From Methanotrichaceae archaeon (GTDB taxonomy: Archaea > Halobacteriota > Methanosarcinia > Methanotrichales > Methanotrichaceae): a DNA stretch of 64,000 nt. The notes under the pieces are model-generated. The model searched no databases. It was not told the origin of the DNA and was given only the letters and a program-made list of their open reading frames with translations. Position 1 is the stretch's first letter; each line of letters begins with the position of its first letter. The translations under genes and the position numbers were made by a program. The stretch covers positions 62,001 through 126,000 of the forward strand of contig JABLXE010000010.1 in the NCBI GenBank assembly GCA_013178225.1. The letters are read 5' to 3'. Below are positions 6,462 through 22,885 of the stretch, in pieces.

Positions 6462-7421
6462 ATGAATAAGGGATTGATGGCCCTTATTGCAGCTTTAGCT
6501 TTGTTAATTGGCGCAGCGTGTGCTGCCAATTACATGTACGAGAAGGCTTCAGTCAAGGGCGTAGGATACAAAAATGTAGAGATGATAGTCTCTACTCAGT
6601 ACGGCTTTTCCGGAGCCAAGCTGGTAGAAAAGGAATCAGGTTCCGGCAATGTGATCACTGAGAGAACCGAGCTAGAAGCGGAGAGACAGCTTGATCATGA
6701 TTACTCAAGACTTCCTTACGATTGCGACTATCCGACCGGCGGATGTCCCATGGATTACATCAACTTCACCAAGGAAGCAGAGTTCGAGTACATGCCTGTC
6801 TCCTACCAGACCGGCACCTATGATCAGAAGTGGATTGAGAAGCTGTGCGTTCAGAATTACCGCATCGGTGCAGTCCTGACCGAGATGTACACCCATGCTG
6901 AGCACCTGCAGAAGACAACTGAGGTCAAGACCAGGCTCTATGGATGGGACCCTGCTGAGACCATAAAGGATGTCGGCGACGTGTTCTTTGCTCCTGCTCC
7001 AATTAATAACGGTGGGACATTCGATCCGTCGAATCCGGATTCCAGCATGATATCCGAGACCTATAAAACGGGTTACTGGAAATATAAGGTGACTGAAAGC
7101 GGAGGATATGATGATTCTCTAAAGCCGCCAAACGGAAATTATGAGACCCCTTCGAAATCGGTAGTAGATCCCTCGGAGGAATGTAACGGTTGTTGCACCG
7201 GCGTTCTGGAGGCCAATCTCAACAGCAACGTGATCGGCGTTGCCCATATCGGCTGGCTGTCCAGAGATCCCATGGCTGAGAAGAACCTGAAGGGCAGGCA
7301 CGCCGAATACGGCCGATCGGTCGAGGATCTGACCGGCGTCTTCTCCATTGAGAAGTTCATTCAGCTCTGGGGCAACTCCACCTGCGGCGCAATCAGCGTT
7401 GACTGGCTTCCCTGCTTGTGA
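6462..7421 (+). CDS. Secreted conserved protein, variable-family copy A (possible envelope or sheath protein)
   Basis: This 319-residue protein has a clear Sec signal peptide (MNKGLMALIAALALLIGAACA). The mature part starts NYMYEKASVKGVGYKNVEM. It shares long near-identical blocks with the gene at 22082-22885: the first 60 mature residues, CPMDYINF to TEVKTR, and a C-terminal block from CCTGVLEANLNSNVIG to WLPCL. Two segments between these blocks differ in sequence and length; copy A carries about 60 extra residues rich in Gly, Pro and Asn. Several conserved Cys suggest disulfides. I do not recognise a named family. A constant frame with variable insertions, a signal peptide and a very strong ribosome site suggest an abundant envelope protein, and Methanothrix filaments have a protein sheath, but that link is speculative. 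Confidence 0.8.
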   Translation: MNKGLMALIAALALLIGAACAANYMYEKASVKGVGYKNVEMIVSTQYGFSGAKLVEKESGSGNVITERTELEAERQLDHDYSRLPYDCDYPTGGCPMDYINFTKEAEFEYMPVSYQTGTYDQKWIEKLCVQNYRIGAVLTEMYTHAEHLQKTTEVKTRLYGWDPAETIKDVGDVFFAPAPINNGGTFDPSNPDSSMISETYKTGYWKYKVTESGGYDDSLKPPNGNYETPSKSVVDPSEECNGCCTGVLEANLNSNVIGVAHIGWLSRDPMAEKNLKGRHAEYGRSVEDLTGVFSIEKFIQLWGNSTCGAISVDWLPCL

Positions 7422-11278: not shown

Positions 11279-11354
11279 GGGGCCATAGGGTAGCCTGGTA
11301 TCCTACAGGACTGGGGGTCCTGTGACCTGCGTTCAAATCGCAGTGGCCCCACCA
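11279..11354 (+). tRNA. tRNA-Pro (anticodon GGG), CCA encoded
   Basis: The acceptor stem GGGGCCA/TGGCCCC, D arm region, anticodon stem CAGGA/TCCTG around loop CTGGGGG (anticodon GGG), variable TGAC, and T arm CTGCG-TTCAAAT-CGCAG are all present, followed by discriminator A (11351) and genomic CCA (11352-11354). The 3' part from the anticodon stem onward is repeated at 21593, and this tRNA is the integration site of the element to its right. Its 3' half has therefore been supplied by the element while function is retained. Confidence 0.93.
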
Positions 11355-11369
11355 CTTGATTTTGCTGAT
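11306..11369. repeat. attL core (64 bp) of the tRNA-Pro element
   Basis: Starts CAGGACTGGGGG in the tRNA anticodon stem and ends TTTTGCTGAT beyond the CCA. It is identical to 21593-21656. After one mismatch (G here, A at attR) a further 8 bases, GCGATTTT, also match. Confidence 0.92.
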
Positions 11370-11507
11370 GGCGATTTTCACATTTACTACTGCCCATTCC
11401 AACATGAAATCCACCTTTTGGCCATTTATTCTTTTTCGCCACTTGATTCTTAATCCTGTAACCGATCCCTGCTAGAATTTCGGGGAGTATCTAATTGAAG
11501 TCCATTG

Positions 11508-12963
11508 GTCATCGGTTAAGGTTTGATTTAAATACTCTCCCTGTCCCATTGGTGTCATCTCATTATACCTCTATTGGATAACTCTATTAATAACATATAA
11601 ATAATATAGATTTCTTTCTAACCTCGAAGGGCCGATGAAAGTGTTTTAAAAGCTACTCATTCGAGGAAAAGAGAATCTGATCGAAAGGGAGCTATGTGAG
11701 CTGTTTCCAGCCGAATGGCTGAGAAACAAGGCAAGAGAGACTGGTTTGATCAAGCGTGAGCGCAAGATCGATCCAGTGATTATCTTCTGGGTCTTAGCTA
11801 TTGGCTACGGAACTTTTTTTCAGCGAACTCTTGCTGGTCTGAAGCGCAATTATGAGAGAGCTTCGAAACAGATTTTGAGCGATAGCAGTTGGTATTATCG
11901 GTTCACTCCTGAGCTTGTCGCTTTTCTGCACGAGTGCGTAGCAAGAGGTATGGAAACATGTCTCAAGAACCGAGCCGAACCTTAAGTGATCGCCTCTCGC
12001 CGTTCAAAGATGTCCTGATCCAGGACAATACTATCGTTAGGCTACACGAAAAGCTATCCCAAGTCTGGCCAGCCACAAGATCGCGCAAAGTAGCAGCAGG
12101 CGTCAAGGTTGCCGTCCTGACCAGCGCCATAGCTAACGGTCCGAAGAGCGTGGCTCTGTTTGCTGAGAGCACCAATGACCTAAAGACTCTGAAGATTGGA
12201 TCCTGGGTAAAAGACCGCATTCTGCTAATAGATCTAGGGTTCTACAAGTATCACGCTTTCACCCGCATCAAGGAGAATGGTGGATCCTTCGTGTCCAGGC
12301 TGAAGAGCAATGCCAATCCGCAAATAATCGATACCAATCGGGCCTATCGAGGCAGGAGCATCGATATAAGAGGCAAGTACCTCCAAGATGTCTTGAAGAA
12401 TTTAAAAAGGCAGGTGCTGGACGCAGAAGTGGAGATAGAATTCAATCGTCGAGCTTACCGCGGCAAAGAGAAAAAGGATAGCGAGCGGTTCAGGTTGGTT
12501 GCAGCTTACAACGAAGATGAGGACAAGTATCATCTGTACATAACCAATCTCTCACCAGACCTGCTGGAGCCTGAAGAGGTAGCCAGGCTATATGCAGCTC
12601 GATGGGAAGTGGAGATATTGTTCAAAGAACTCAAGAGCAAGTATGCGCTGGATATAATTCCTACCTCTAATCCGCAAGTGATTGAGGCCTTCATCTGTAT
12701 CTCCATTCTCACATTGATTATCAGCAGGAGAATCTATACAATCATACGCCGACGCAATCCCGAGCCAAAGATGTAAGGTTTACTCAGCTCAGGTGGAGCA
12801 ACTTCTTCTTGGAGAATGCCAGTCAGATACTGAATGCCGTTCTGTCTTATCTCGGAGCGAGCATATCCTTAATGACTTCATTTGAAATTAGCCTAAGTGA
12901 GGCACTCGACCCGCATGTGAACAGAAGGCGATTTACTGAGGAATGGTGGACTTAACCGATGAC
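11508..12963 (+). mobile_element. Decayed IS4-family-like insertion sequence inside the element
   Basis: GTCATCGGTTAAG at 11508-11520 is repeated inverted as CTTAACCGATGAC at 12951-12963, enclosing a transposase pseudogene. No convincing target duplication is visible. The right end lies inside the 3' end of a minus-strand wHTH reading frame, so the insertion truncated or extended that gene. Confidence 0.7.
11635..12955 (+). pseudogene. IS4-family-like transposase pseudogene
   Basis: The DDE-type core is recognisable: DRILLIDLGFYKYHAF with a catalytic Asp, the YxxRWEVEILFKELKS-type Glu motif (ARWEVEILFKELKS), and a C-terminal helix region. The reading is broken three times: a TAA at codon 5 (11647), a frame change around 11943-11985, and another near 12767-12776, after which the ending (WSNFFLENASQILNAVLS to RFTEEWWT) lies in the third frame and stops at 12953-12955. 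Without all three repairs no full-length product is possible. Confidence 0.75.
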
Positions 12964-13199
12964 ACATGAATTGAATTAATATTAGAGATGCTGGATAATA
13001 ACGCGACACCTGACGGTGTTATCTTATAGACTTTCCCCTCCAATGCTAGATATCCGTGGCCAATGAGCCATTCTAGATAGGTACCTGCCGTCTTGGAGTT
13101 AAGATTGGCCTCACGGATTAGGCGAGTCTTGGTCGCGCCTCCTGACTTACATTTATTCAGTATGCATGCTACTATCTGTAGTTTCTCTCGCCTCGCTAT
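12933..13199 (-). CDS. Winged-helix transcriptional regulator with ATA in place of the start codon
   Basis: The frame encodes about 88 residues beginning ARREKLQIVACILNKC, then TKTRLIREANLNSKTAGTYLEWLIGHGYL and VYKITPSGVALL. This is the pattern of small archaeal wHTH proteins (HTH_45 type) that bind DNA near their own genes. AGGAGGC lies at 13206-13212 with a 6-base spacer, yet the codon in the normal start position is ATA, so this is either a rare start or an inactivated ATG. The last few residues and the stop lie in the terminal repeat of the adjacent insertion sequence. It is the best candidate regulator of the element. Confidence 0.6.
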   Translation of the reverse strand: MARREKLQIVACILNKCKSGGATKTRLIREANLNSKTAGTYLEWLIGHGYLALEGKVYKITPSGVALLSSISNINSIHVSSVKSTIPQ

Positions 13200-13212
13200 A
13201 TTGATGCCTCCT

Positions 13213-13526
13213 AGGAAATCCAGAAAGACAACTATCGTCGCCTAAACTGAAAAACTTTGGGGAAGTAAAATACGGATGTAAAATAAGGATGATTAAAGCG
13301 TCATCGCCAAAGATAGCGTCGTCGTCCTCGCCGCGCCTGAGCCAGGTTTCTGGATTGTGGCAACACCATAAAGGGATTAGATGAAGGCCATCCCCCACTG
13401 CGGCTACGACGCCGTCGATCGACAAGAGCTTTGTAGGAACCAGGTACTTCTCTGTCCTGACCCTGCGGTCGGACTACATAAAGCCTAAGGGGACTGAAGA
13501 TTCTCTTCATTTTATTCTTCCTTTGA
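13213..13526. other. Region without supported gene
   Basis: About 310 bases between the wHTH gene and a minus-strand small frame. Overlapping frames on both strands look random. I see no clear promoter or repeat. Confidence 0.4.
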
Positions 13527-13772
13527 TTAAAGGAGGCGAAGGTCGAGAATGGAGAGGTCTCGGGGAGCCGGATCGAGGCGGTTTGCGAGAATACGGTCGC
13601 TCAGCAGCATTCTCATCACTGATCTGCATTGGTCTTGACCTATTTCTCCGATCATAAGTCCCCGATAGATTGCCGCTTTTATGCTTGAGTCGCGGCCGTT
13701 GGAGGCTTTGGCTATGAGTTCGGCCGGATTGACGGATAAAGCCGAATCGTTAGCCAGGAATGCGTTAGCCAA
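13527..13772 (-). CDS. Hypothetical protein, possible remnant
   Basis: An 81-residue frame with coding-like composition (ELIAKASNGRDSSIKAAIYR, then QCRSVMRMLLSDRILANRL). The frame is open back to a stop near 13810 but has only TTG at 13772 as a start and no ribosome site. Its beginning (DSLANAF, FLANDS) is formed by copies of the TTAGCCA-type motif read on the minus strand, and a decayed relative can be read at 18790-18840. No family recognised; it may be part of a broken gene together with 13882-14176. Confidence 0.3.
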   Translation of the reverse strand: MANAFLANDSALSVNPAELIAKASNGRDSSIKAAIYRGLMIGEIGQDQCRSVMRMLLSDRILANRLDPAPRDLSILDLRLL

Positions 13773-14060
13773 AGAATCAGCTGCTAGAGACGTGGTGGAG
13801 CCATTTAGCTAGCTTTAGCTAGAATCTGTGTTTGGCTAAATATAGAGTCTAAGAATGGTCCTTTTCGTCTGAAACTCCGTATTAATGGTTATTGAAGGAT
13901 TTAGCTAAGGTGCGAGTATGAGGATGGCACGAGTGTGAGGATCGATGCTCGATTAGAGGCTCACGCTGGAATATCTCGGCCAATTGAAGGAATGCGCCTA
14001 TGGATTGCGGTTCTTTCGCCAAAACCCGAGTTAGCCAAATGAAGCTAAATGTAGCTAAAT
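13749..14060. repeat. Left cluster of TTAGCTA-type motifs (about nine copies)
   Basis: Copies of TTAGC(T/C)A or its complement are found near 13749, 13764, 13804, 13813, 13831, 13899, 14031, 14043 and 14052. The core TTAGCTAA is palindromic. A segment from about 13765 to 13910 is an imperfect direct repeat of about 18792 to 18936: both contain TTAGCCAAAGAATC, then TTTAGCTAGCTTTAGC, then GTCTGAAAC, in the same order and spacing. The two clusters flank the kinase genes. Confidence 0.7.
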
Positions 14061-14176
14061 TCCTCCTGATAGAGTCTTCAACCCTTGCAATGGTGCTGGC
14101 TACATCTTCCACAGGCGGCAAAGATAAATCCCAATGGATAGCTGTATAAACTATAACGATATAATTAGAACGTCCT
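13882..14176 (-). pseudogene. Minus-strand coding remnant of unknown family
   Basis: An open frame reads YTAIHWDLSLPPVEDVAS, then RRNLATFSFIWLTRVLAKEP and SIGAFLQLAEIFQREPL, with amphipathic helical character. It is open to about 14176 without ATG or ribosome site; TTG at 14121 is the first conventional start. Probably part of a degraded gene. I do not recognise it. Confidence 0.35.
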
Positions 14177-14245
14177 TAAGAGCTAAACATATAAAGCGAA
14201 ACTTATAATAATAGGAACCAAAATTTCCTAGGCAGGAGACGTACA

Positions 14246-14540
14246 ATGGAATGCAGCCCCTCCTGCATGAAGATCGTGAAGTTTTGCTGGAAATAAAGAT
14301 GCAGAAATCCTGTAGCATAAAGGACCATCAAGAGCTGTTCTTAAGGATCTTTGACTATCTAAGGAATTGTTTGACAGATTTTACCAAGAATATGAGCTGC
14401 TCCAGAAAAATCGAATGAATAGGCCCTGCAAGATGGAAAAAAGATACACCAGATCGTCGAACCTACATAGGAGTGTACTTGGGACCATCGATTCTAAGGG
14501 AACACCGAACTGCGATAATTCAAAGGCGGCAGATGTAGGG
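14246..14540 (+). pseudogene. Possible twice-frameshifted small gene
   Basis: A TATA-like CATATAAAG near 14188, GGAG at 14234 and ATG at 14246 look like a real gene start, but the frame stops after 16 codons (MECSPSCMKIVKFCWK). Coding-like sequence continues in the other two frames: MQKSCSIKDHQELFLRIFDYL from 14299, then KELFDRFYQEYELLQKNRM and MEKRYTRSSN up to a stop near 14540. Two indels would join them. The alternative is that the 16-residue Cys-containing peptide is itself made. Confidence 0.35.
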
Positions 14541-14664
14541 TAAATGGCAAAAGACATGCGCAACAACTTGTCCCTCGCTTTCACGGACCATCAGGGAGAG
14601 GAGAAGCCCGACGATATTTCGAACGGTGCTGAGCAGTGCATTTAAGAAGGTGGTGTCGACCTAG

Positions 14665-15123
14665 ATGGAAAATGCAGCTATTAAAACAACAAGATTTGCA
14701 AACCTTGTAATGAGTCATGAGGATTGGCTGGTTCAAAGAGTTCTCTCTTATGCAAAGGAAAACGGTTACACGAGGTACACCTCTACATTAGCCGATGCCT
14801 GGAAGACCTCCATGTCCGATCTATCCCAATCTCTTCTGGAGTGCCTGAAGGAGCAATTAGTCGTGCCGGAGCTTCTGGCAGATGAAGATTATAAAATAGA
14901 CCTTATTGCCAAGTTCAGCATATTCGAGGCAAAAAGACACCGTAAACGTAGCGTAAGCTTGGGCATGTTTTTGGGCCTTATGAAATATTATCGCCAAAGC
15001 TACATCGATCTCGTCATGCGGGCAGCCTTTGAGATCGAAGAGGGGAGGAGCTATACCGATTGTTTATCGATCGGTTCTTTGATCGAATCGAACTCGGATT
15101 CTGTATGGAGTGAAACAGCTTGA
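14665..15123 (+). CDS. N-terminal helical sensor domain of a split histidine kinase
   Basis: A 152-residue soluble all-helical protein. WLVQRVLSYAKENGYTRYTSTLADAWK and HRKRSVSLGMFLGLMKYYRQSYIDL match the N-terminal domain that in bacterial (deltaproteobacterial-type) sensor kinases is fused directly to PAS domains; this is from memory of the family. Here the stop (15121-15123) overlaps the kinase TTG start by 4 bases and the two frames differ by -1. The products therefore are either coupled separate subunits or the result of an indel in one original gene. Confidence 0.65.
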   Translation: MENAAIKTTRFANLVMSHEDWLVQRVLSYAKENGYTRYTSTLADAWKTSMSDLSQSLLECLKEQLVVPELLADEDYKIDLIAKFSIFEAKRHRKRSVSLGMFLGLMKYYRQSYIDLVMRAAFEIEEGRSYTDCLSIGSLIESNSDSVWSETA

Positions 15124-18100
15124 CCGAGAATCAGGCTCTAGCAGAGCTGCAATCCGCCAATCGTTGCATGACCAACGAGAAGAACAAGTATCTAACCATC
15201 TTCGAGAGCTTCACGGATCCGGTCTTCTTATTTGATAAAGAGAATCGTATTGAGAATATGAATAATGCTGCCTCGGAGCTTTTTTTTGGTATCAGCGTCC
15301 CAGGATCCGCATACTACGATGAACAGAAGTTTAGAGAGGTCCTTCCCTGGATTGAAGGCGAACTAGCCGCATTGGATGAAAATGGCCAAAGGGAAGTTGT
15401 TTTTGAAAAGAAGGTAATGACTTGCAAGGGCACCCTCCAATTCCAAGTCAAAATCAAGCAGATGCTCGATGTCAGCGAGAAGTTCTGCGGCAAGGTCGTC
15501 ATACTCGACGATGTCACCGAGCGCAAGCGAGCAGAGGACCTTCTGGAACAGGAAAAGGCCCTCTTACGCTGCTTAATCGACTCCATACCTGATCTCATAT
15601 TCCTTAAAGATCCTGATAGCGTCTATCTTGGTTGCAATAAGGCTTTCGAGAAATATGTTGGACGCCCTGAGAGAGAGCAGATAGGCAAAACTGATTTTGA
15701 TTTCTTCGATGCTGAGACCGCAGAATTCTATCGAGAAAAAGATCGGCTGATGCTTGATGCCGGAGAGTCACGCCGCAACGAAGAATGGGTAACCTACCCG
15801 GATGGAAGAAGGGTTTTGCTTGATACCCTCAAAACACCTTTCTACGGCCCTAATGGAGAAATACTGGGTCTTGTGGGAATCAGCCGTGACATTACTCAGA
15901 GAAAGCTAGCAGAGCAAGCACTGAAGGATTCCGAGAGCAAACTGGCAGCCATTATTGAGTTCCTCCCAGATGCAACTTTTGTCTTAGACAATAATAAGGT
16001 AGTGATAGCTTGGAATCGCGCTATGGAAGAGATGACTGGTGTCAACAAGGAGAGTATCATCGGACAGGGGGACTATGCTTACGCCGTTCCCTTCTATGGC
16101 GAACGAAGGAAACAGTTGCTGGATCTCATAGATGTAGACGACAAGGACATTGTGTCCAATTATCAATATGTAAAAAGAAAAGGAAATACACTTTTTGCGG
16201 AGACATATGCACCTGCATTGAATGGAGGTAAAGGGGCCTATGTGTGGGCAACTGGAGCACCTCTCTTTGATAATGAAGGCAACCGTGTAGGCGTTATAGA
16301 ATCCATCCGCGATATAACTGAACGTAAAAGAGCAGATGGAACTCTACGAGAGCAGTTCAATTTTCTTCAGCAGTTAATGGATTCAATACCAAACCCTATC
16401 TTTTACAAAGACGCCAATGGTGTTTATCTTGGCTGCAATGCGGCCTTTGAGACTCTTATGGGCTTTCCCAAAGATGAGATAGTAGGTCATACCGTCTATG
16501 AGCTATATCCTAAAGACCTGGCTGATATTTATTTTGAGGCCGATAGCAAACTCTTCCAGAATCCTGGGTCGCAGGTATACGAGACTGAAATAGTCCATGC
16601 GGATGGAAGCAGGCACGACGTCATGTTGAGCAAAGCCACCTATTTCGACATCGAGGGTCGATTGGCAGGTCTTGTGGGCGTTATTCTGGACATAACTGAA
16701 AGGAAGCTTATTGAGAATTCCCTGAGGGAGTCTGAAAGACGCCTGGTGGATATTGTCAATTTCTTGCCTGATGCCACCCTGGTCATCGATCGGGAAGGCA
16801 AAGTGATTGCCTGGAACCGTGCCATTGAGTCGATGACCGGAATAAAGGCTGCGGAAATCCTGGGCAAGGGCAATTATGAATATGCTTTGCCCTTTTATGG
16901 CTATAGAAGGCCGATTCTAATCGATCTAGTACTCAAGTCCCAAGAAGAACTCGAAAGAGGGTACACCGATCTGAGAAAACAGGATGGAACACTGATTGGC
17001 GGAGCATACATGCCGACTCTTAAGGGAGGAGGAATTTTTCTTGTCGGCAGTGCAGCAGCACTTTACGATTCTGAAGGTAATGTCTCAGGAGCCATAGAGT
17101 CGATCCGAGACATAACTGAGAATAAGCTCGCTGAGGAGGAACTGAAAAGGGCTAAGGATGAAGCCGAGTTGGCCATGCGGGCTAAGTCCGAGTTCCTGGC
17201 CAACATGTCCCACGAGCTTCGCACACCGATGAATGCAGTAATAGGCATGACCAGCCTGCTGCTGATGGAAGATCTGACGGAGGAGCAGAAGGACTACGTG
17301 GAGACCATACGCAGCGGGGGCGAAGCGATGATGACGCTCATTAACGAGGTTCTGGACTTTTCACGGATGGAACGTGAGAAGCTGGAGTTGGAAGTCCATC
17401 CCTTCGACCTGCGCCAGCTGGTTGAAGAGGCATTGGATGTGGTTGCTGTGGAGGCCGCCAAGAAGGGTCTGGAGCTGGCCTACGTTTTTGAAAAATCTGC
17501 TCCTGAGGCTGTGGTAAGCGATCCGGCCAGGCTGCGACAGGTGCTCAGCAACCTGCTTGGCAATGCCGTGAAGTTCACGGATCATGGTAGCGTGATGCTA
17601 TCCGTATCTCACAAGGATGAAGAAGTCCACTTCGCCGTTCAAGATACAGGCATAGGCATAGCTGAGGGCCAGATGCACCGGCTCTTCCAGGCCTTCAGCC
17701 AGTTGAACATGTCTCTGACGCGGGGCTATGATGGGGCCGGCCTTGGCTTGGCTATTAGCAAGAAGCTGGTCGAACTGCTGGGCGGCCGGATCTGGGTAAC
17801 CAGTGAGGCTGGCCGGGGAAGCACTTTCCACTTCACTATCAAGGCTCTGGGGGCTCCTGCTCAGCTTAAATTGTTCATGGAAGAATCGCAGCCGCTTCTG
17901 CAGGGCAAGATCGTGCTGATCGTGGCCGGCAACCTTACCCTCAGACGAATATTGGGTCATCAGGTCCATAAATGGGGGATGACGCCACGGCTTGCGGAAT
18001 CCGTTCAGGAAGCTTATCGGGTTCTCCTGTCTTCCCAGTCATTCGACCTGGTTATAGTAGACCTGGCAACTCCCGATGCAGTGTCCGTGTTGACAGAGAT

Positions 18101-18698
18101 CCACGAATATTATGAACATCTTCCACAAGTTGTTCTGGTACCGATAGGCCAAAAGGTACCTTCCAGCCCCCAGGCCAAAGCAGTAACAAAGCCTATTAAG
18201 CTGGCTGATTTGCATGAGTCTTTGATCAAAGCGCTTTCAGAGCCCGAGCAGGAACCTGCAGAAATAAACACTGTCAATCAAGAGAGCGAATATAGACCTC
18301 TGCGCATCCTGCTAGCGGAAGACAGCATCTCCAACCAGAAGATGACCCTACTGATGCTTAAAAAGCTGGGTTACCGTGCCGACGTCGTGGCCAACGGTCA
18401 GGAAGCACTGCAGGCTCTGGAAAGGCAGCCTTACGATATAATTTTGATGGATGTGAAGATGCCGGTGATGAACGGCCTGGAAGCCACCAGAGCCATCCGG
18501 GAGAGATGGTCGAAGGAGGGTCCGAAAATCGTGGCCCTGACTGCTTATGCACTACCGGGGGACGAAAAGAGATGTCTCGCGGCGGGCATGGATGCCTACC
18601 TCAGTAAGCCGGTGCAGATGGACGATCTAGCGGAGATGCTGGATCGATACAATCCTGATAAAAGGGCGGCGATCGATGAATCATGCGATCTCTGCTGA
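15120..18698 (+). CDS. Hybrid sensor histidine kinase with five PAS domains and two receiver-like domains
   Basis: Domains by residue: PAS1 about 23-138, PAS2 148-265, PAS3 272-403, PAS4 412-530, PAS5 537-668, HisKA with the phospho-His in MSHELRTPMN (H698), HATPase 795-910 (NLLGNAVKF, DTGIGI, GAGLGLAI), a degenerate receiver about 930-1040, and a true receiver 1062-1178 (acidic pair E1067-D1068, phospho-acceptor D1111, K1163). The degenerate receiver keeps D991 and K1024 but lacks the acidic pair. PAS2-PAS3 and PAS4-PAS5 look like a duplicated two-domain unit. No membrane helix, so it senses a cytoplasmic signal. It starts at TTG overlapping the upstream gene. No separate output regulator is adjacent. 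The type is bacterial, suggesting transfer. Confidence 0.9.
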   Translation: MTENQALAELQSANRCMTNEKNKYLTIFESFTDPVFLFDKENRIENMNNAASELFFGISVPGSAYYDEQKFREVLPWIEGELAALDENGQREVVFEKKVMTCKGTLQFQVKIKQMLDVSEKFCGKVVILDDVTERKRAEDLLEQEKALLRCLIDSIPDLIFLKDPDSVYLGCNKAFEKYVGRPEREQIGKTDFDFFDAETAEFYREKDRLMLDAGESRRNEEWVTYPDGRRVLLDTLKTPFYGPNGEILGLVGISRDITQRKLAEQALKDSESKLAAIIEFLPDATFVLDNNKVVIAWNRAMEEMTGVNKESIIGQGDYAYAVPFYGERRKQLLDLIDVDDKDIVSNYQYVKRKGNTLFAETYAPALNGGKGAYVWATGAPLFDNEGNRVGVIESIRDITERKRADGTLREQFNFLQQLMDSIPNPIFYKDANGVYLGCNAAFETLMGFPKDEIVGHTVYELYPKDLADIYFEADSKLFQNPGSQVYETEIVHADGSRHDVMLSKATYFDIEGRLAGLVGVILDITERKLIENSLRESERRLVDIVNFLPDATLVIDREGKVIAWNRAIESMTGIKAAEILGKGNYEYALPFYGYRRPILIDLVLKSQEELERGYTDLRKQDGTLIGGAYMPTLKGGGIFLVGSAAALYDSEGNVSGAIESIRDITENKLAEEELKRAKDEAELAMRAKSEFLANMSHELRTPMNAVIGMTSLLLMEDLTEEQKDYVETIRSGGEAMMTLINEVLDFSRMEREKLELEVHPFDLRQLVEEALDVVAVEAAKKGLELAYVFEKSAPEAVVSDPARLRQVLSNLLGNAVKFTDHGSVMLSVSHKDEEVHFAVQDTGIGIAEGQMHRLFQAFSQLNMSLTRGYDGAGLGLAISKKLVELLGGRIWVTSEAGRGSTFHFTIKALGAPAQLKLFMEESQPLLQGKIVLIVAGNLTLRRILGHQVHKWGMTPRLAESVQEAYRVLLSSQSFDLVIVDLATPDAVSVLTEIHEYYEHLPQVVLVPIGQKVPSSPQAKAVTKPIKLADLHESLIKALSEPEQEPAEINTVNQESEYRPLRILLAEDSISNQKMTLLMLKKLGYRADVVANGQEALQALERQPYDIILMDVKMPVMNGLEATRAIRERWSKEGPKIVALTAYALPGDEKRCLAAGMDAYLSKPVQMDDLAEMLDRYNPDKRAAIDESCDLC

Positions 18699-18775
18699 AC
18701 GCCAAAACCCATCCGATTTCGGGACCGTTTCGGCCCCACGTGATGCTAGCCTGCGGAACTTGGCTGATCGGACAT

Positions 18776-19139
18776 TTAGCCAGAACGACTATTAGCCAAA
18801 GAATCGATAGCTTGCAGCTCAGGGGGGCCGTTTAGCTAGCTTTAGCCAGAACGAGTGTCTAGCTAAATAAGCCGGATTTTATGCGTCTGTTTGGTCTGAA
18901 ACCTAATTATAATGCTCTGTTACAGAATTAGCTAATACTTTGAAGAAAAGAGGAGACATAGATGGCGGGGCTAATAGGCATAACGAGAGAAATGGATGAG
19001 GAACAGGTCCTTAGGCTTTCTTCCACATGGGCTAGCTAAAGGCTGTAATTGCGCCTGATGATACGGATTCTTTAGCTAAGGCCGGATCTAGCTAAATATA
19101 TCGAAATGCCGCCGGATCGCGTTTTCGGATTCTAGCCAA
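18776..19139. repeat. Right cluster of TTAGCTA-type motifs (about ten copies)
   Basis: Copies near 18776, 18792, 18832, 18841, 18860, 18929, 19031, 19071, 19087 and 19132. The block begins about 80 bases after the kinase stop. No supported gene lies between 18699 and 19434. A promoter-like AT-rich stretch (TTAGTATATTATACACC and following) is at about 19350-19390. Confidence 0.7.
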
Positions 19140-19434
19140 TACTGGTTCGAGATTTGCTTCCGAAAATAGCATGTAATCCCTGAGATTACAGCTAATGCTG
19201 CCTTCAGACAGAACAGACTAAAGACGGGGGACCTTCCGCTATGATGTTATGCCGTCCGTATAGTGTATGGTCCTCAACCTTTGAAACCTATTCTGCTTGT
19301 CCAATGGTCTGTCAACTATGTCCACGGATATTGCAAATTTGACATGTTTAATTAGTATATTATACACCAAATATTACTTATACTATTATCTCGGTAAGTA
19401 TGGCAAAGGTATCATTCGAGCATTCAGGCCAAGC

Positions 19435-19854
19435 ATGTCAAAAACTACCCGCACCCAGGTCCAATCACAGCTATTTGTGGAGGAAGATCCTTTGTTCCAT
19501 AATGACCGGCGATATTGTGTCAAGCACTGTTCCGCAGTAGACGAACTCGTGGCCGATATTGTGAGAGAGAAATGCATTCTATGCCGGGGATGGGAGGTAG
19601 ATGGCTACCTTTTCCTTAACGACAGCTTTGATGAAAGTGGCATTTTCGATATTGCCGTATTGCGCATCAAAGATAGAATTGGCAATCAGTACGTCTGCGA
19701 TCAGATTGATTCCATTGCGATTGACCTTTATGACGCTAACCAGCTGCGAGAATATATCAATGCGGCAATGAAGCCCGATGTTCTTGCCCATGGAGAACAG
19801 ACTGTAACAATAGAAACACCTAGGGCGCACCAAGGTTGCGTTTGGTGCGCGTAG
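19435..19854 (+). CDS. Hypothetical protein of the element, Cys-containing
   Basis: About 139 residues from ATG at 19435 (MSKTTRTQVQSQLFVEED). The frame is open upstream to 19297, but that part overlaps a likely promoter. It contains RRYCVKHCSAVDELVADIV and KCILCRGWEVDGYLF, giving four Cys that could bind metal, and ends HQGCVWCA. Soluble, acidic, family unknown. No good ribosome site is visible, so the start is uncertain. Confidence 0.5.
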   Translation: MSKTTRTQVQSQLFVEEDPLFHNDRRYCVKHCSAVDELVADIVREKCILCRGWEVDGYLFLNDSFDESGIFDIAVLRIKDRIGNQYVCDQIDSIAIDLYDANQLREYINAAMKPDVLAHGEQTVTIETPRAHQGCVWCA

Positions 19855-19901
19855 AGGCTCGATCGAGCAGATTAGGGCAGATACTAAACCGGGGTACTGA
19901 C

Positions 19902-20249
19902 ATGGAGACAAATCTGGAGAACTATATGCCGTTGTCCGAAATATCAAAGTTCCTAGTATCGACAAGCAACGACCCAGTAACAAAATGGGCTGACGACACT
20001 GCAAAGATTGAATTTCTGACCAGGATTCTGGATTCCCTGAGACGGGACACTAAGCAACAATCGTATGCGATCGAACGCATCACCGAGCTTTTGGAGGTAT
20101 TGCAATGGAAGAGGTGCGATCTTGGAAGGTTGCTTCTGCATAGCGGAATGGTGGAAGGTGGCAACGGTCAACATACAAGTGCTGACCGAACTGTGATAAT
20201 TGCTTCTGCAGGATATGCAACTGGAACGCCTGCGGAGAAGTCCTGCTGA
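19902..20249 (+). CDS. Hypothetical protein of the element
   Basis: About 115 residues from ATG at 19902 (METNLENYMPLSEISKFL). A central helical segment (KIEFLTRILDSLRRDTKQQSYAIERITELLEVLQW) could form a coiled coil. It follows the previous gene by 47 bases in the same direction and is probably co-transcribed. No family recognised. Confidence 0.45.
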   Translation: METNLENYMPLSEISKFLVSTSNDPVTKWADDTAKIEFLTRILDSLRRDTKQQSYAIERITELLEVLQWKRCDLGRLLLHSGMVEGGNGQHTSADRTVIIASAGYATGTPAEKSC

Positions 20250-20621
20250 AGAAAGCAGCTTCGCACATTTATCCCGTCGGATTTATTTTTCTCCAGAATC
20301 AATGCATTCCCTCTATAGATACTAAAGAGGATTTGTCAGGATTTTGGAGAATTATAATACGCTGTGAATTATATTGACTGATGCGTTCTTCTCTATCAAT
20401 GATTGGAGTCCCGGTCTTGTCCCACGCCCCTGATCCAGAACCTCGTGGCCGTCTCTCAAGTGGCTTCACTATCACCCTGCGGGTAAAATCTAAGGCTGGT
20501 ATCAACGAAAATGCCGTACTCCTGTCTCGCGTTCATGGCAATGAGCCGCAGCGAATTGCTTACCCTAATCCCTCACCTCCCCTATTTAGGAGAGTGTGTC
20601 CAATGGGTGGAGGCGATGAGA
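20250..20621. other. Region without supported gene before the integrase
   Basis: Lies between two genes whose 3' ends converge. Frames on both strands look random. A TATA-like stretch near 20350-20375 is not clearly linked to a gene. Confidence 0.4.
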
Positions 20622-21590
20622 TCACAGGGTCAGGTATTGCGCGTGCTTTTCTCGTTTCACTTGATCGCTGATATGCAGGTAGCGGCTTGTGGTCTTTTTG
20701 TCTCGATGCCGCATTAGCTCCTTGATTGTGAGAATATCGCAGCCGTTCTTTATCATGATTGACGCGGGACTATGCCTTCCGAAGACATGGACACCACCGG
20801 GCTTAGTGATTCCGGCTTTTTTCTTGTAGATGCATAGTACCCGGTGAACCTCAGAGCGATGCCATCGGTTTAAATAATCTGTGATAAAGACCGGGTGTTC
20901 TCCGCTCACTTCTATCGGAGGCCGTATTAAGAGATATTCCTTCAGGATGGCCGCGACTTTGGAATTGAGAGGTACCATGTCTTCTCTGCCACCTTTGTCG
21001 CGAACTCTGAGGGTCATTGCTTCAAAGTCGATATCGTCATCATTCAAGGCGCAAAGCTCAGAGACTCGGAGACATTCGTAAAACATTGTCGTGAGCATTG
21101 CCAGGTGCTTGAGGTTATGGCAGGCGTTGAAAATCCGTGAAACATCCTCTTCGGTGAAATAGTGTGGGATGCAATTGTCCGGCTTGATGAACTTGAATGT
21201 GGCCGGATAACCTATCATTTCGTGGTACTTCCTCGCTGAAAATCCGAAGTTATTCAAAGTAGATCGGGAGAGCTTTTTGCTAATGAGGTGTTCCCGGAAG
21301 CGGGAGTGTTCTTCTGGTGTTGGGTGGTCGGTTTGCGCAAATTCAAGATATTTCCCGGATCGGAATACATAGCCTTCGATAGTCGATTCGCGAAAGCCGT
21401 TTGCCTCAAGGTGACGTCGGAACTTCCGGAGAGCCGGTTGGATGTCGGTCTTCTTTGTGGTTCGGCTCCAGTCTATATTTAATTGTTTCCTCTTAATATT
21501 GATCCCGCCATAGATGGCAGGGAAATGGATTCTTTGGCCCCATAGGACACGCGCAGGCGCTAGCCGAGCATGTCCAAGTGGTGGGGCCAT
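20622..21590 (-). CDS. Tyrosine recombinase (integrase) of the tRNA-Pro element
   Basis: An N-terminal SAM-like core-binding domain (IQPALRKFRRHLEANGFRES) is followed by the catalytic domain, with Arg in CLRVSEL, Lys in RVRDKGGRED, the HVFGRHSPAS box with His and Arg, a His in LMRHRDKKTT, and the Tyr in TSRYLHIS. It is the enzyme expected to recombine the two 64-bp repeats. The only in-frame ATGs upstream of the conserved part lie inside the tRNA-like attR: ATG at 21590 is chosen, another is at 21623. The upstream DNA therefore changes from host flank to element left end on excision, which could alter its expression. Confidence 0.88.
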   Translation of the reverse strand: MAPPLGHARLAPARVLWGQRIHFPAIYGGINIKRKQLNIDWSRTTKKTDIQPALRKFRRHLEANGFRESTIEGYVFRSGKYLEFAQTDHPTPEEHSRFREHLISKKLSRSTLNNFGFSARKYHEMIGYPATFKFIKPDNCIPHYFTEEDVSRIFNACHNLKHLAMLTTMFYECLRVSELCALNDDDIDFEAMTLRVRDKGGREDMVPLNSKVAAILKEYLLIRPPIEVSGEHPVFITDYLNRWHRSEVHRVLCIYKKKAGITKPGGVHVFGRHSPASIMIKNGCDILTIKELMRHRDKKTTSRYLHISDQVKREKHAQYLTL

Positions 21591-21641
21591 AGCAGGACTG
21601 GGGGTCCTGTGACCTGCGTTCAAATCGCAGTGGCCCCACCA
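21583..21641 (+). pseudogene. D-arm-less tRNA-Pro-like sequence at attR
   Basis: GGGGCCA (21583-21589) is followed by only TAG, then the anticodon arm, variable loop, T arm, TGGCCCC and ACCA exactly as in the tRNA at 11279. The 5' acceptor strand is thus present and pairs with the 3' strand, while the 17 bases holding the D arm are missing. It is probably a non-functional attachment-site relic, although it can fold into a three-armed tRNA shape. Confidence 0.75.
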
Positions 21642-21656
21642 CTTGATTTTGCTGAT
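21593..21656. repeat. attR core (64 bp) of the tRNA-Pro element
   Basis: Identical to 11306-11369. Host sequence resumes at about 21657. Confidence 0.92.
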
Positions 21657-21733
21657 AGCGATTTTGAGGTGTGATATCGAACTGCTTTATATACTCTATC
21701 CTCATATCTGACGTAAAAATGTCATCTTGTCAC

Positions 21734-22081: not shown

Positions 22082-22885
22082 ACGAAGCGACTATTAGTCT
22101 TAGCAGTATTAGCTGTTGCTTTAGTTGGCATGGCAGGTGCGGCCAACTACATGTATGAAAAGGCATCAGTTAAGGGTGTAGGGTACAAGAACGTCGAAAT
22201 GATCATTTCGACCCAGTATGGCTTCGCAGGAGCAAAACTAGTTGAGAAAGAATCCGGGTCAGGTAACGTGATCACCGAAAAGACCGAGCTAGAAGCTGAG
22301 AGACAGCTCAATCACGATAGCAGCCCAATTGGCTCTGTGCCCGATGAATGGGACCAGAACGGCAAGCCAATTCATTTTACTGGCATTTGCCCATTCCCAA
22401 CTGGAACTATATGCCCTATGGATTACATCAACTTCACCAAGGAAGCTGAGTTCGAGTATATGCCCGTCTCTTATCAGACCGGCACCTACGACCAGAAGTG
22501 GGTGGAGAAGCTGTGTGTGCAGAACTACAGGATCGGCGCCGTGTTGACCGAGATGTACACTCATGCCGAGCACCTGCAGAAGACCACTGAAGTCAAGACT
22601 AGGGCTTATAGCTTGCTACACAACCGTGAAACGGGTATTGTTGGATGTACCCCATGCTGTACTGGTGTCCTCGAAGCTAATCTGAATAGCAACGTTATCG
22701 GTGTTGCTCACATTGGATGGCTCTCTAGGGATCCTGAGCCTGAGAATAACTTGAAAGGACGCCACGCTGAGTACGGCCGATCGGTCGAGGATCTGACCGG
22801 CGTCTTCTCCATCGAGAAGTTCATCCAGCTATGGGGCAACTCCACCTGTGGCGCTATCAGCGTTGACTGGCTGCCCTGCCTATAA
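22082..22885 (+). CDS. Secreted conserved protein, variable-family copy B, with ACG at the start position
   Basis: Paralogue of the gene at 6462. From 22082 the frame reads (ACG)-KRLLVLAVLAVALVGMAGA-ANYMYEKASVKG, a perfect signal peptide, with GGAGGG at 22070-22075 and a 6-base spacer. The first in-frame ATG (22130) would remove most of the signal peptide. The start codon is therefore ACG, or an ATG has mutated and the copy is silent. The sequence is 267 residues, lacks most of the copy A insertion after TEVKTR, and has a longer variable part before CPMDYINF. The C-terminal block is almost identical to copy A in DNA as well as protein, suggesting gene conversion or recent duplication. Confidence 0.75.
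   Translation, partial: TKRLLVLAVLAVALVGMAGAANYMYEKASVKGVGYKNVEMIISTQYGFAGAKLVEKESGSGNVITEKTELEAERQLNHDSSPIGSVPDEWDQNGKPIHFTGICPFPTGTICPMDYINFTKEAEFEYMPVSYQTGTYDQKWVEKLCVQNYRIGAVLTEMYTHAEHLQKTTEVKTRAYSLLHNRETGIVGCTPCCTGVLEANLNSNVIGVAHIGWLSRDPEPENNLKGRHAEYGRSVEDLTGVFSIEKFIQLWGNSTCGAISVDWLPCL

Follow-up and report, generated by a model that had tools for sequence, protein, structure and literature searches.

Integration scars made of tRNA fragments are well documented and widespread in archaea, and are often mis-annotated as tRNA genes (PMC9897764). In PYG1, which is integrated in tRNA-Gln of Pyrococcus yayanosii, an intact tRNA lies at one end, a displaced repeat at the other and the integrase inside (PMC9897764), and the element described here has the same layout. 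Its integrase also resembles the classical non-suicidal XerA/pNOB8-like integrases (PMC8371274) in domain order, in an uninterrupted int gene and in an anticodon-arm crossover that restores the tRNA. Three features set the locus apart: unlike PYG1-type att fragments, a 15-bp palindrome encloses the displaced copy and gives it a 5' acceptor strand again; unlike the classical integrases, this Methanotrichaceae-like set has attP sites in which a 3' half, a 5' half or a whole tRNA may be found; and the int gene of this element lacks the start codon that its relatives have. Template switching is reported to create hairpins (PMC8794818) and, between inverted repeats, to cause 'spacer inversion' (PMC8604942). 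As in those cases, the arms at our locus are perfect beyond a pre-existing short stem, but the event is read here from the present-day sequence only.

The window (the whole stretch of 64,000 nucleotides that was analysed, from a Methanotrichaceae archaeon) contains an integrated element that encodes an IS4-family transposase, a PAS histidine kinase/response regulator, small ORFs and an integrase (Table 1). The tRNA-Pro(GGG) at attL, the only full-length GGG copy found in its own genome, has a TATA-like TTATAT at -36. The two direct repeats differ by one mismatch in 73 bp, with the initial 64 bp identical. Repeat identity begins at anticodon-stem base 27, in keeping with a crossover inside the tRNA, and the tRNA at attL is intact. 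At the other end, the segment 21583-21641 is the same as tRNA-Pro(GGG) minus 17 nt (GGTAGCCTGGTATCCTA) of the D arm, with GGGGCCATAG preceding the 64-bp core, confirming the D-arm-less tRNA-Pro shape described in an earlier note on this DNA. Sites matching GGGGCCATAG occur in the window at 11279 and 21583 only. The 59-mer is predicted to fold into acceptor, anticodon and T arms. Based on the 73-bp repeats shared with an intact tRNA and on the adjoining integrase gene, we are confident in assigning 21583-21641 as the attR of an integrative element, that is, a displaced remnant of tRNA-Pro that lacks a promoter.

Table 1. Features of the integrated element and its att sites, with the remodelled tRNA-Pro of a second genome. 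Positions are those of the window except for L087.
Feature	Position	Strand	Evidence or description
Intact tRNA-Pro(GGG), attL of element	11279..11354	+	Encoded CCA; ARAGORN; Rfam tRNA 56.4 bits
Integrated element, ~10.3 kb, bounded by repeats	11306..21665	.	
Direct repeat, left copy, 73 bp	11306..11378	+	Anticodon arm to trailer ...GCGATTTT
Direct repeat, right copy (attR core)	21593..21665	+	72/73 identical to left copy
GGGGCCATAG	21583..21592	+	tRNA-Pro positions 1-10; inner part of inverted-repeat arm plus TAG
Inverted repeat, left arm CAAGTGGTGGGGCCA	21575..21589	+	Perfect, 15 bp
Inverted repeat, right arm TGGCCCCACCACTTG	21631..21645	+	Acceptor 3' strand, A73, CCA, trailer CTTG
Tyrosine recombinase (int), XerA/XerD-like	20622..21494	-	Phage_integrase 96 bits; NCBIfam; alignment
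Remodelled tRNA-Pro in G003:C16	L087, around 1601-1900	complement	

The int gene is transcribed inward, and the attR core begins about 100 bp from its homologous start. Its coordinates in Table 1 are counted from the residue aligned to the start methionine of its relatives, where AAG (21492-21494, minus strand) replaces ATG. An in-frame upstream ATG is present at 21590-21592 (minus strand), in CTATGGCCCC at the edge of the inverted repeat. To judge from these codons, int would be either decayed or abnormally started, and because its start codon is lost the element is probably decaying. The conserved catalytic-domain residues H, R-H, H and Y are present. Relatives in the family are 43-58% identical, and NCBIfam classes the protein as XerA-like with weaker similarity to integron integrases. 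The integrase tree was mostly poorly resolved, with few good pairs, among them the window integrase and that of L053 as sisters (L numbers denote loci, G genomes and C contigs). A search of viral contigs with the integrase and the att junction returned one distant integrase and no junction, and a search of genome contigs with the integrase returned one distant match only. Two hairpin-like repeats of 78 nt (TTAGCCAAA...TTTGGCTAA; 13765-13842 and 18792-18869), 74% identical, bracket the histidine kinase genes in the element.

The apparent 5' acceptor strand at attR is the inner 7 bp of the 15-bp inverted repeat, which outruns the acceptor stem by 8 bp and pairs the CCA and the trailer; the extension of the left arm past the acceptor strand reads CAAGTGGT. 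Among perfect inverted repeats whose arms are no more than 100 nt apart, it alone in the 64 kb is 12 bp or longer; shuffled controls averaged 0.2 repeats of 13 bp or longer and 0 of 15 bp or longer. The real tRNA-Pro is preceded by TTTTCGCCAGC, which holds no counterpart of the 8 extra bp; in its place, the sequence left of the acceptor at attR mirrors the 3' end of the tRNA and its trailer. When folded with its flanks, attR was predicted to form a single long hairpin with two side arms, in which the CCA is paired, not free. Compared with the antisense of the 3' part that attR retains, the left flank scored 30 (15/15; 0/300 shuffles); compared with the tRNA 5' half, it scored 20 (10/10; p about 0.01). 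Its likeness to a 5' acceptor comes from an inverted copy, 15 bp long, of the tRNA 3' end with CCA and trailer, whose inner 7 bp it contains. The apparent 5' acceptor of attR is thus the inner half of a 15-bp DNA palindrome, and the copy is an odd but ordinary integration remnant, not a novel type of tRNA. The 10-nt match to the tRNA includes a TAG that the inverted repeat alone does not explain. Among the integrase relatives, the sequence of the inverted repeat was not conserved, and the left flank used as a query gave short matches at chance level only.

Crossovers fall in the anticodon arm throughout the integrase family. As in the window, int lies 5' of the tRNA core at L036, L041, L042, L044, L047 and L048. 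The two ends of L036, 9.1 kb apart, each carry a whole tRNA-Leu, and only the far copy has a TATA-like TTTTATATAG. A full-length but decayed tRNA-Leu is found at the int side of L041, a short contig on which the second end is unseen. L042, also on a short contig and seen at one end only, holds a full-length tRNA-Pro(GGG) with no TATA box and with two stem-breaking changes, in the acceptor and anticodon stems. Because whole-tRNA copies lie on the int side at L036 and apparently at L041 and L042, displaced copies with a 5' acceptor are nothing unusual for this family. The earlier note had stated that an ordinary displaced 3' fragment would not contain one.

The att copies at L044, L047 and L048 are truncated. 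At L035, L037, L038, L039, L049 and L051, int lies on the 3' side with an intact tRNA beside it, and L039 and L049 have truncated remnants at the far end. At L045 the other end, with a complete tRNA, was identified, a pattern like the use of the 5' half reported for pTN3-like integrases (PMC8371274). The comparison of att sites that the earlier note had proposed gave a divided answer: the sequence left of the core at the five truncated sites (L039, L044, L047, L048 and L049) did not consistently resemble the tRNA 5' half when set against shuffles, and three sites hold a whole tRNA there. The truncated form with a 5' acceptor and no D arm was absent from these five relatives and, allowing up to 3 mismatches, from 199 other genomes of the class, none of the same genus. 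The idea that the flanks of relatives mimic the missing 5' half was rejected, as they did no better than shuffles except in isolated cases and ARAGORN called the shuffles too. ARAGORN named the L039 remnant tRNA-Ser, a level matched by its shuffled flanks (48/300).

Opposite tRNA halves (3' or 5') lie beside int at L045, L046, L050, L053 and L087 (G003:C16) on the one hand and in the window, L044, L047 and L048 on the other. L053, in tRNA-Gly, has the closest relative of the window integrase and the opposite polarity. An archaeal integrase family with 3'-half, 5'-half and whole-tRNA att sites could show how polarity switches and how such sites decay. Many att sites of this integrase family also carry a motif resembling GATATCGATTTT, at both ends and 10-25 bp downstream of the tRNA (11358-11378 and 21645-21665 in the window; L044, L047, L048, L035 and L037), and the direct repeat ends on it. 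It is possibly an integrase arm site or the footprint of earlier insertions.

In the proposed course of events, the tyrosine integrase would have inserted the element by recombination within the anticodon arm of tRNA-Pro(GGG), and the element core would restore the host tRNA at attL. At attR, the displaced 3' half would be kept and joined on its left to attP sequence borne by the element. That attP may once have held a whole or partial copy of tRNA-Pro, from which the D arm was then deleted, and template switching across the acceptor-stem hairpin at replication may have homogenised and lengthened the arms. Deletion and template switching in this order are most likely, and attR is best read as a dead att remnant that template switching has reshaped. 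The ends of the D-arm deletion showed no clear microhomology, and the searches returned no close relative of this particular attP.

Two routes lead to such a remnant. In the first, to which we give an even chance, attP began with an entire tRNA-Pro(GGG), lost the D arm through a 17-nt deletion and then had its acceptor hairpin lengthened by template switching. At L042 the same tRNA, complete in length but with no promoter, is oriented in the same way to a related integrase, and L036 and L041 hold whole tRNA-Leu copies. The 10-nt match is exact, in register with the tRNA start and otherwise absent from the 64 kb. Template switching is reported to extend arm identity in pre-existing imperfect inverted repeats (PMC7202029, PMC3820800). 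Against this route, two events are required, the L042 integrase is not the closest relative of that in the window, and no intermediate was seen among 200 genomes. The earlier note had offered this history without the palindrome, as an element that began with an entire tRNA-Pro and later shed its D arm; the three whole-tRNA loci make it plausible.

In the second route, which we regard as credible though short of probable, the left arm was never a tRNA 5' end, and one template switch or fold-back placed a 15-nt inverted copy of the tRNA 3' end and trailer to the left of the core. The left flank scores higher against the antisense 3' part than against the tRNA 5' half, descent from the tRNA does not by itself account for the 8 bp past the acceptor, and the truncated att sites of relatives are without a consistent 5'-half likeness. 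Under this route, chance must account for TAG agreeing with tRNA positions 8-10 (1 in 64) and for the repeat ending exactly where the acceptor does, and relatives do have whole-tRNA att copies. The two routes are alternatives within a single verdict, and attR is a displaced, promoterless att remnant under either.

The 15-bp inverted repeat could instead have been selected, as an integrase arm site or as a leader hairpin of int that includes the upstream ATG. No other long inverted repeat occurs in the window; int, whose homologous start codon is lost, shares its frame with the ATG of CTATGGCCCC; and hairpins beside the crossover also occur in the element-side flanks of L047, L053 and L046 (p about 0.02-0.04 per element). 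We consider this improbable, given that the repeat sequence is not conserved in relatives, that flank hairpins are not universal and that relatives start int outside the att core. The weaker integron-integrase similarity, together with the same three flank hairpins, would also accommodate a folded attC-like site, in which the palindrome brackets an anticodon/T-arm unit and the integrase acts on extruded single-stranded hairpins, but we hold this to be very unlikely.

The family's intact tRNA-Pro genes with 60 nt of upstream sequence all carried TTATAT at -34 to -42 (19/19, own attL included). No TTATAT was found upstream of the attR copy, of L042 or of the int side of L036. Rfam cmscan assigned the attR copy to no family at E<=1, and ARAGORN in normal mode found the tRNA-Pro at 11279 and did not call the copy. 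When the flank was shuffled and the same core retained, ARAGORN called a tRNA in 82/300 controls, so the tRNA-likeness is largely carried by the core. ARAGORN calls on the attR copy in mitochondrial and tmRNA modes were treated as artefacts of lax settings and circular wrap-around; a standard-mode rerun alongside them missed the intact attL as well, and these runs were not counted as evidence. The earlier note had suggested that a three-armed tRNA-like RNA may be made. In favour of a functional D-arm-less RNA of this kind expressed from attR, the 59-mer has a stable fold (z = -3.2) and mitochondrial-mode ARAGORN proposed a candidate overlapping the site, but the reading can be set aside as extremely improbable given the missing promoter and Rfam match, the silence of standard ARAGORN on a copy whose shuffled-flank controls it does call, a CCA buried in the 15-bp stem, the intact GGG gene at attL and the occurrence of the form in no other of the 200 class genomes.

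The attR copy shares with D-arm-less mitochondrial tRNAs the predicted acceptor, anticodon and T arms and the lack of a D arm, but, having no promoter or model match, a paired CCA and an intact gene at attL, it bears a resemblance only. We infer that the locus is silent and that its product is DNA only, devoid of tRNA function. An integration scar can be remodelled into a lookalike of a D-arm-less tRNA, which is a trap for tRNA annotation.

A second remodelled tRNA-Pro was found in G003:C16, where a 5' half with a promoter is followed, after the anticodon arm, by an inverted T arm (TGATTTGAACGCCG). The G003 assembly gave no complete tRNA-Pro(GGG) match. This copy parallels the remodelling at attR and is as expected of the spacer inversion between inverted repeats (PMC8604942). 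In G002, the only full-length tRNA-Pro(GGG) match is the copy at L042 (4425-4497; G002:C287), which lacks a TATA box, and the true gene may be missing from that assembly. A full-length degenerate tRNA-Pro(GGG) lies at L085 (6892-6963; G014), 5.2 kb upstream of the intact gene, in a 16-kb stretch from which a related integrase is absent. In the window's own genome, L003 (1483-1546; G000:C7:54857-54920) holds a degenerate tRNA-like sequence whose T arm is partly identical to that of tRNA-Pro, possibly another old att scar. On either side of the tRNA and the element, two paralogous genes with no family matches (6462-7421 and 22130-22885) contain DNA stretches that are 81-87% identical.
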